From: Verrucomicrobiota bacterium
GTDB taxonomy: Bacteria > Verrucomicrobiota > Verrucomicrobiia > Verrucomicrobiales > DEV007
Assembly: GCA_020630975.1 (NCBI GenBank)
Contig: JAHDID010000003.1
Coordinates: 14,474 to 78,473, forward strand
Direction of reading: 5' to 3'
DNA length: 64,000 bases
Shown: positions 42,821 to 45,310 of the stretch, piece by piece
Layout of the letters: every line of letters starts with the position of its first letter
Numbering within the stretch: position 1 is the stretch's first letter
Notes under the pieces: model-generated
The model's input: only the letters and a program-made list of their open reading frames with translations
What the model was told of the DNA's origin: nothing
Database searches by the model: none
Translations under genes and position numbers: made by a program

Positions 42821-42843
42821 GCGACCCTGCCCGTTAGGGTCGC
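42821..42843. terminator. Hairpin between convergent tpiA and pilin-fusion genes
   Basis: GCGACCCT (42821-42828) pairs with AGGGTCGC (42836-42843) across a 7-base loop. It overlaps the last codons of the minus-strand pilin-fusion gene and lies 33 bases after tpiA. T-runs are short on both sides, so it is a plausible but not textbook bidirectional terminator. Confidence 0.5.
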
Positions 42844-44519
42844 TTGACTAGTTTTAGATCAGTCAGCCATGTGCCATTCTCTCTCTGAGAGATGGCTACA
42901 GTGTGGTAGCCGGGATCGAGTTGGTAGTCTCTACGGTAGTAGCTAGTAAACCACTCTTCACCACGGCGACCCGTGTGCCATATCCGGCGATCCTCGCCAT
43001 TCACGGCGACATGAAAAGAGTCATCGTTGCCAGTAGGCGCTTTCACTTGAGCAGCTACCCAGTAGGTACCACCTTCGGTGATGGCGAATTCAAAAAGCAC
43101 TTCTTCCGTGCCCCAGCCCCCAACATTGTTGTGACTACCGAGAGCGATTTTTCCTGCGACTCGGTCTAGACTCAGATTACCAGTCGGCAGCGTGCCAGAC
43201 ACGTTGTGCTCTAGCACAGGTGTGGTAGGTGCTGGGCGGTTGGATCGGGTCTGGTAGACGGTGATGTCCACATTATCGAGGAAGTTGCCGATGCCATTGC
43301 TGCCACCAGTGGACTCAAATCCGACGTAGAGTTTTACCATGCCCAGTGGGACATCATAGTCGATGGTGTAGTTTTTCCACTCCTGGATGCCTGTAGTGTC
43401 TGTCGCCAAGAGGTGACGGAAGCCTTGTGCGGCCATATCCTCAGCAGCACCAGCGCTGGCTTTCTTTTCTGGAGCTGTGCCACCGGCCCATACATTGACC
43501 ACTTCGTTTTCATAGCGACGCTTAGCGTGACTGAAGCTGATGCGGATACGGGCTACGTCTCTCACGTTCACTTCTTGGAATAGGGTCCCACGCTCGTGTC
43601 CGTTTAGCTCGAAGAATGCACCTCCGTCTTGGCTTTGAAAACCACTTGGATTGGACTCCCACACCTCCACTTGGCTATCAGATGCGGTGGATGTCCAACC
43701 ATCGATATTTTCATCTCCTGTGGCGAAGATTTTAGTGCCATTACTTTGAGTCCAGTTGCCCGACATCTTGCTGGTATCGGTGTCGACACTACGAATGTCT
43801 ACGGCGCCATTTGTCTGCTGGGTGAGCACGGCACCTACTGGTGGGGCTCTGTTGTAGTCTACACTGCCTGAACCACCACTACCGCTACCACCACCACTAG
43901 TGCCTGAACCCGAGCCTGAGCCACCTGAGCCGGAACCCGAACCGCCGAGACTGACGGGGATAGGAGCTGTCTGCACAGGCACGTTGCCCACGATACTCAT
44001 AGCACCAGCGTTTTTGCCATCTGGCGAGATGGGTGCCCAGTTAGGTTTTGTTGTGTGAGTGGTTTCAGTACCAAAGTCTTTGCTGTCGTAGTCGACCAAT
44101 ATGCCGGTACCTGCTTCATCAATACCAGCAAGGCGAAAGTAGGTGCCCGCCCAGATTAGGCGATATTCGTCGACGTCATTGGAGACGGTAGGAATCCAGT
44201 CTGTGCGAAAAAATGGTCCAGCTACACCAACTTCCACAGTGTCGTCGCGCCACTGGAGTGTCTGCAGGACATGGATCTCGTCTCGGCCATCAGTAGTCTC
44301 TGCTCCTGTCGATAGTGGCCATTGAGCGTGACCAAATTCTTTCACTGCATTATTGAGCTGCTTTTGGCGGTTCATCGCCACGGCTTTACGGCTTGCTTCT
44401 GTGATGCCATCATAAGAAGTCACCGCTACTGCGGCGAGTACGCCAATGATCGCAATGACTACGATCACTTCGACCATGGAGAAGGCCGCTTGGTTGTGAG
44501 TGAGGTGCTTGTGTTTCAT
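42834..44519 (-). CDS. Type IV pilin/pseudopilin fused to a large C-terminal beta-sandwich region
   Basis: A 561-residue protein. Prepilin leader and cleavage site: HNQAA-FSMVEVIVVIAIIG, with cleavage after Ala12 and Glu5 of the mature chain present. Residues 1-172 are closely similar to the complete 173-residue pilin encoded at 44728-45249. A Gly/Ser linker (about 191-220) joins this to two beta-rich modules: one like DUF642/CBM jelly rolls (about 290-425, ISFSHAKRRYENEVVNVWAGG, MVKLYVGFESTGGSNGIGNFLDNVDI) and one at the end (about 455-561, GTYWVAAQVKAPTGNDDSFHVAVNGE). I infer a minor, tip-located pilin that displays a ligand- or glycan-binding module. The leader region shares the 11-mer TAAATATAATT (plus-strand 44538-44548) with the paralogue at the same distance from the start. 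Confidence 0.8.
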   Translation of the reverse strand: MKHKHLTHNQAAFSMVEVIVVIAIIGVLAAVAVTSYDGITEASRKAVAMNRQKQLNNAVKEFGHAQWPLSTGAETTDGRDEIHVLQTLQWRDDTVEVGVAGPFFRTDWIPTVSNDVDEYRLIWAGTYFRLAGIDEAGTGILVDYDSKDFGTETTHTTKPNWAPISPDGKNAGAMSIVGNVPVQTAPIPVSLGGSGSGSGGSGSGSGTSGGGSGSGGSGSVDYNRAPPVGAVLTQQTNGAVDIRSVDTDTSKMSGNWTQSNGTKIFATGDENIDGWTSTASDSQVEVWESNPSGFQSQDGGAFFELNGHERGTLFQEVNVRDVARIRISFSHAKRRYENEVVNVWAGGTAPEKKASAGAAEDMAAQGFRHLLATDTTGIQEWKNYTIDYDVPLGMVKLYVGFESTGGSNGIGNFLDNVDITVYQTRSNRPAPTTPVLEHNVSGTLPTGNLSLDRVAGKIALGSHNNVGGWGTEEVLFEFAITEGGTYWVAAQVKAPTGNDDSFHVAVNGEDRRIWHTGRRGEEWFTSYYRRDYQLDPGYHTVAISQRENGTWLTDLKLVKRP

Positions 44520-44727
44520 TATTTATAAAAATTATGGTAAATATAATTCACATAACAAAGACCTCAAGCAGTCAATTATAGGAAATTGCCTTCCATGCAT
44601 TTCGCTAATGCCTGAATAGCAGATGGTTGGAAAAATGGCCGACGGAATGTGACGTCGGCCTTTACCTTGGAGGTGGCGTTAGTTCCCAGTTGAGAACTTG
44701 AGATCGAAATTTACTCGCGGATCTGAC

Positions 44728-45249
44728 TTAGTTCCCGGCATTTTTACCATCTGGTGCGACAGGCACCCAGGAGGTGTCGTTGATGTGGGGAGCCTCTGTA
44801 CCGAAGTCTTTGCTATCAAAATCAATCAGAATGCCCGTGCCGGCTTCGTCGAGGCCTGCTAGACGAAAGTTGGCGCCTTCCCAGATCAAGCGATACTCAT
44901 CGGTGTCGCTGGAAATCGCAGGAATCCAATCGGTGCGAAAAAATGGTCCTGCAACGCCGATTTCAGTCGCTGTATCTCGCCACTGTAGGGTCTGGAGGAT
45001 ATGGAGTTCATCTTTGCCATCACTTGTCTCGCTGCCAGTGTCCAGAGCCCACTGAGCATGACCAAATTCTTTCACAGCGTTGTTCAGCTGTTTCATGCGA
45101 TTCATGGCTACCGATTTGCGGCTTGCTTCAGTAGCTCCGTCAAATGAGTTTACTGCTACGGCGGCTAGGATTCCGATGATGGCGATGACAACAATCACCT
45201 CTACCATGGAAAATGCGGCTTGATGGGAACTGGAAAGTCTCTGTTTCAT
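44728..45249 (-). CDS. Type IV pilin/pseudopilin-like protein
   Basis: A 173-residue protein with the prepilin leader MKQRLSSSHQAA-FSMVEVIVVIAIIGILAAVAV, cleaved after Ala12 by the prepilin peptidase, with Glu5 conserved. The globular part (QLNNAVKEFGHAQWALDTGSE, GVAGPFFRTDWIP, YRLIWEGANFRLAGLDEAGTG) closely matches the N-terminal third of the neighbouring fusion gene. It ends at PDGKNAGN, just where the fusion diverges. It is probably a pilus or type II secretion pseudopilin subunit. No assembly ATPase, platform or secretin gene is nearby. Confidence 0.85.
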   Translation of the reverse strand: MKQRLSSSHQAAFSMVEVIVVIAIIGILAAVAVNSFDGATEASRKSVAMNRMKQLNNAVKEFGHAQWALDTGSETSDGKDELHILQTLQWRDTATEIGVAGPFFRTDWIPAISSDTDEYRLIWEGANFRLAGLDEAGTGILIDFDSKDFGTEAPHINDTSWVPVAPDGKNAGN

Positions 45250-45310
45250 GTTTTCTATAAATTACATTAAATATAATTTTTGTAAAATTATAGAGAATAG
45301 AAACATGGCT

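Follow-up and report, generated by a model that had tools for sequence, protein, structure and literature searches.

Two pilin genes lie in tandem on the minus strand of the window, the 64,000-nucleotide stretch of DNA analyzed here. The first in reading direction encodes a plain type IV pilin (P0002), and the second its longer paralogue (P0001), in which the pilin is followed by a linker and two further modules. Both genes lie at the positions given in the initial annotation. The features of the locus are listed below.

45268..45278 (-): AATTATATTTA element, 18 nt before the ATG of P0002
44728..45249 (-): P0002, plain 173-residue type IV pilin (PF07963, TIGR02532; orthologues adjoin the extension ATPase in relatives)
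44637..44660 (-): intrinsic-terminator-like hairpin after P0002 (8-bp stem with 7 GC pairs, then ATTTTT)
44538..44548 (-): AATTATATTTA element, 18 nt before the ATG of P0001, overlapping a AATTATGGTAATTAT-type site
42834..44519 (-): P0001, 561-residue modular pilin (P0002 paralogue, linker and two modules)
44484..44519 (-): class III leader peptide of P0001, residues 1–12 (from the sequence; PF07963 at residues 8–32)
44004..44483 (-): pilin module of P0001, residues 13–172 (identity to P0002; codon-position differences)
43863..43946 (-): Gly/Ser/Thr linker of P0001, residues 192–219
43245..43811 (-): module A of P0001, residues 237–425, a DUF642-like jelly roll
42837..43226 (-): module B of P0001, residues 432–561, CBM6/CBM35-like

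Both proteins match the N-terminal methylation model PF07963 above its cut-off of 21.2 bits (28.5 bits in P0002, 27.4 in P0001). The same holds for TIGR02532, where P0001 scores 22.9 against a cut-off of 16.3 and P0002 is likewise above it. The leader of P0002 ends in HQAA and the mature protein starts with FSMVE; in P0001, cleavage of the prepilin is expected after Ala12. Prepilin peptidases cut after Gly or Ala (PMC10191384), and the alanine preceding FSMVE is thus compatible with processing. Glu5 of the mature pilin is kept in both proteins.

P0002 and residues 1–172 of P0001 align without gaps at 74% identity (blastp, E 7e-81), bearing out the near-match of the two pilin regions that had been noticed earlier. 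At the DNA level the identity is 69.6%, far above chance. The 155 differences in 172 codons are distributed as 33, 23, and 99 over codon positions 1, 2, and 3, with a dN of 0.16 and saturated synonymous changes; the duplication is thus not recent. These substitutions follow a purifying-type pattern, as would be expected if selection had maintained the pilin domain, and the 561-residue reading frame of P0001 is intact. The linker, described at the outset as pure Gly/Ser(/Thr), is indeed composed exclusively of G, S, and T over its 28 residues (GGSGSGSGGSGSGSGTSGGGSGSGGSGS).

An identical sequence 18 nt before both start codons, first reported on the opposite strand, reads AATTATATTTA on the coding strand. 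This 11-nt identity extends to ATTATATTTANNNTAATT, and the sequence is also found exactly before another tailed pilin gene. Allowing at most one mismatch, the related 15-mer AATTATGGTAATTAT has 24 sites in the genome (L143–L166), compared with one for the reversed control. Such sites often lie within 20 nt of start codons; eight precede pilin genes and others precede genes of other exported proteins. The enrichment at pilins is partly circular, since the motif was derived from pilin upstream regions; when the six derivation sites are set aside, 2 of the 18 remaining sites also precede pilin genes. The preferred interpretation is a promoter-type element serving a gene set that includes tailed pilins.

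The 111-nt region of the hairpin between the two genes folds with a z-score of -4.6. A strong hairpin-plus-T terminator at this position suggests that P0001 and P0002 are probably separate transcripts. The common expression proposed in the initial annotation is plausible by way of the shared upstream element.

The two appended modules

The sequence following the linker had been described as jelly-roll-like. Structure prediction agrees for module A, and module B was placed by profile. The AlphaFold model of module A, obtained with a four-sequence alignment that includes three Bacteroidota loci found with five module A sequences, shows a 10-stranded β jelly roll (pTM 0.63, mean pLDDT 58); a model of the whole of P0001 from its single sequence gave no usable information (pLDDT 35). 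The closest solved folds to the model are MAM, Eph ligand-binding, CBM4, CBM61, and gingipain adhesin domains (Z 12–13). As jelly rolls are common, these matches to a predicted structure would support the fold rather than a ligand. DUF642 (PF04862) is matched by 9 of 12 module A homologues, with E-values up to 0.1 and a best value of 1.8e-6. Module A of P0001 itself scores 15.7 bits, under the Pfam cut-off of 27 bits, and is accordingly labeled DUF642-like.

The genome contains 11 copies of module A: one in P0001, one in a second pilin (L067, 370 residues, with a different head type), and nine within seven giant proteins. Elsewhere, among 289 genomes of the order, the module occurs solely in large proteins, almost all of them between 1,800 and 9,500 residues long. 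The two pilin-borne copies cluster in the tree (support 95/90), both on long branches.

Weak homologues of module B, about 18–30% identical, occur in 19 further genomes among 387 from the phylum. Their host proteins, as judged by reading, are GH115-type enzymes, β-helix lyases, and others, and are largely polysaccharide-degrading enzymes. Among 14 homologues, GH115_C is found in five and CBM35 in two. The profile of the group matches solved proteins with CBM6/35-type domains (8zvk, 2e-11; 5x7o, 2e-6; 1uxz, 2e-4) and reaches CBM6/35 structures at about 1e-3 to 1e-4. Module B of P0001 alone is above the cut-off for no CBM family, its best match being Golvesin_C (15.9 bits against 31.6), and for this reason we name it CBM6/35-like only.

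Modular pilins are an established class, with more than 1,200 proteins in 264 architectures (PMC8179133). P0001 carries the class III signal peptide with N-terminal methylation motif (IPR012902, PF07963, TIGR02532) that serves, like Glu5, as one criterion for a modular type IV pilin (PMC8179133). Its layout is that of a modular pilin as well, with residues 1–172 resembling P0002 and with modules A and B falling, by homologues and profile, into the DUF642-like and CBM6/35-like groups. On the features that can be tested in its sequence, P0001 fits this class (PMC8179133).

Operon of origin

Orthologues of the pair in related genomes are about 30–48% identical to it. In most of the 27 relatives' loci inspected, the orthologue occupies the fourth pilin position of a type IV pilus (T4P)-like operon, with the extension ATPase next in line; the remaining loci are cut by contig ends or were missed by the motifs used. 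The plan of this operon in the relatives is platform protein, pilins 1–4, and extension ATPase. Stop codons inside the relatives' matches suggested a leaky-stop pilin, a candidate that was rejected by translation: the alignment continues past a normal stop codon into the extension ATPase, which lies in the same frame.

In the present genome, the same operon is found intact on another contig (C94). It runs from the secretin and a PilT-family-like ATPase through genes at the usual place of PilM and PilN and two more pilin-like proteins to the platform protein; pilins 1, 2, and 3, the extension ATPase some 30 bases further on, and a response regulator follow. Pilin 4 is missing from this operon, the ATPase coming directly after pilin 3. 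In the tree, the pilin-4 orthologues include P0001 and P0002 as a clade of their own with 100/100 support. By this sequence evidence, the pair is descended from pilin 4 of the T4P-like operon, and the gene is relocated. In the simplest history, pilin 4 would have moved to the window and been duplicated there in tandem, and one copy would then have received the linker and modules, in an order that we infer. No fused orthologue of P0001 was found in 56 relatives, and the fusion is known from one assembly.

The initial annotation had proposed a duplicated pilin converted into a tip adhesin or a substrate-binding pseudopilin. The 100/100 clade within the pilin-4 orthologues, the jelly roll shared with adhesins, and the CBM6/35-like module all favor such a conversion. 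The tip position does not follow from the data. With Glu5 present, P0001 need not be a capping subunit, and the 28-residue linker would permit a placement along the shaft as well.

A probable glycan-binding pilus subunit

P0001 is likely a modular minor pilin, through which a T4P-like filament would present glycan-binding modules. With a class III N-terminus and a pilin domain derived from pilin 4, P0001 would be processed by the prepilin peptidase and then inserted into the filament, alongside plain P0002, by the C94 extension ATPase and platform protein. The Gly/Ser linker would hold modules A and B away from the shaft or tip, where they may bind glycans on a surface, a particle, or a neighboring cell, giving a sticky pilus. 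Judged from its sequence, P0001 probably acts as a subunit of such a sticky fiber.

An extension ATPase, a platform protein, a prepilin peptidase (A24), and a secretin are all present in the genome, each scoring under the equivalog cut-offs of the models specific to T4P or to type II secretion systems (T2SS). The C94 operon resembles the models of the two systems alike, under both cut-offs. Alternatively, it could form a type II-like pseudopilus. P0001 would then be a pseudopilin whose targets, either secreted enzymes or the polysaccharides on which they act, are bound in the periplasm or at the secretin, and not an adhesin on a long surface pilus. This reading is improbable. In its favor, the C94 platform protein matches GspF best, the secretin fits GspD marginally better than PilQ, the pilins also match GspG and GspH models, and the relatives of module B reside largely in enzymes that degrade polysaccharides. 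Against it, the extension ATPase is slightly closer to PilB than to GspE, module A otherwise occurs in giant adhesin-type proteins, and the operon contains the PilT-family-like ATPase, which scores 279.9 bits with TIGR01420 (cut-off 319.1), its best family by far. The presence of this protein beside the extension ATPase tilts the reading toward a T4P rather than a type II pseudopilus.

A less probable possibility, which we consider quite unlikely, is that the pilin part of P0001 serves as a mere membrane anchor and that the modules act at the inner membrane or in the periplasm, outside any filament. The size of the modules might impede packing, as this would imply. Yet conservation at 74%, with a purifying-type pattern and with Glu5 retained, extends over the whole pilin domain and not just its N-terminal helix, and bulky modular pilins are known in pili (PMC8179133, PMC9934059). 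A neutral, transient fusion, in which a spare pilin copy has acquired no selected role, is a very unlikely account of P0001: the fusion is known from one genome, with none orthologous found in the 56 relatives, but the intact frame, the purifying-type pattern of the pilin, the conserved upstream element, and about 15 more tailed pilins in the genome speak against such an origin.

A modular minor pilin with glycan-binding modules has counterparts in other bacteria. PilC of Streptococcus sanguinis also consists of a pilin module followed by two β-sandwich modules (Ig-like, then a ConA-like lectin), for which glycan binding has been demonstrated (PMC9934059); in P0001, binding is predicted. PilC differs in its module families and its monoderm host; P0001, for its part, has a plain paralogue in tandem and a Gly/Ser linker of 28 residues. 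PilB of S. sanguinis likewise bears an adhesion module, functional in that protein, on the C-terminus of the pilin (PMC8179133). There it is a vWA module with a short loop, in contrast to the DUF642-like and CBM6/35-like modules on the long linker of P0001. The pilin-plus-vWA plan of PilB is shared by congeners of the present bacterium, which have pilins with a C-terminal vWA domain (L170 in G025, L172 in G007). CbpC and other cellulose-binding Pil proteins of Ruminococcus albus are pilin-family proteins described as attaching to polysaccharide (cited in PMC3672088). They are pilin-sized and not known to carry an appended CBM-type module, which sets them apart from P0001.

Work on modular pilins covers very few bacteria, and among six papers using the term "modular pilin" no title concerns the present bacterial group. 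To the known class, P0001 adds its plain twin, the absence of pilin 4 from the operon, a long Gly/Ser linker, and modules that also occur in giant adhesins of the same genome. A plain pilin beside its module-bearing twin, together with the single-copy operon state in the relatives, would allow a clean test of the effect of grafting on pilus adhesion.

Tailed pilins and giant adhesins

Reading the loci one by one, we find about 16 proteins in this genome in which a pilin N-terminus is followed by a long extension (327–1,210 residues); the N_methyl model has 44 matches in the genome, 35 of them above cut-off. The extensions include cadherin-like/Big_9, PA14, DUF642/HpiC1-like, LamG-like, and EF-hand-like regions. 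Several are related to the giant adhesins of the same genome: residues 239–459 of pilin L071 match them at 43% (3e-59), residues 284–464 of L064 at 44% (1e-39), and the EF-hand-like C-termini of L061, L063, and L065 with E-values down to 5e-11.

The giant adhesins (L081–L087) are open frames of 3,014–6,685 residues, several of which are cut by contig ends; the parts of them that were scanned contain RTX repeats and cadherin-like domains. At least seven genes are distributed over contigs C156, C96, C5, C6, C147, C51, and C18, with two in tandem on C5. These RTX/cadherin-type proteins share module A and three more modules with the pilins of the genome; they differ from P0001 in not being pilins and presumably rely on type I secretion.

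The presence of some 16 tailed pilins, several of which share modules with giant adhesins, suggests that pili can be equipped from the same parts list as other adhesins. We give an even chance to a broader scheme, in which one pool of adhesion modules serves two unrelated display systems, the giant adhesins and a T4P-like filament, with modules moving between these systems and between pilin heads. Under this scheme, pilin 4 would have been taken from its operon and duplicated to give one carrier and one plain copy.

Tandem pairs of tailed pilins, like the pair in the window, recur in the genome (L063 on C15, L064 on C87, L066 on C44, and L069 on C57). The heads of the C44 pair are 95% identical and the proteins contain long SASG repeats; the C57 pair is identical across about 640 residues and adjoins a run of N. 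A pilin-like frame of 901 residues in the genome G032 (L171) has an extension that closes with a long, Ala-rich segment resembling a coiled coil and with a run of Asp.
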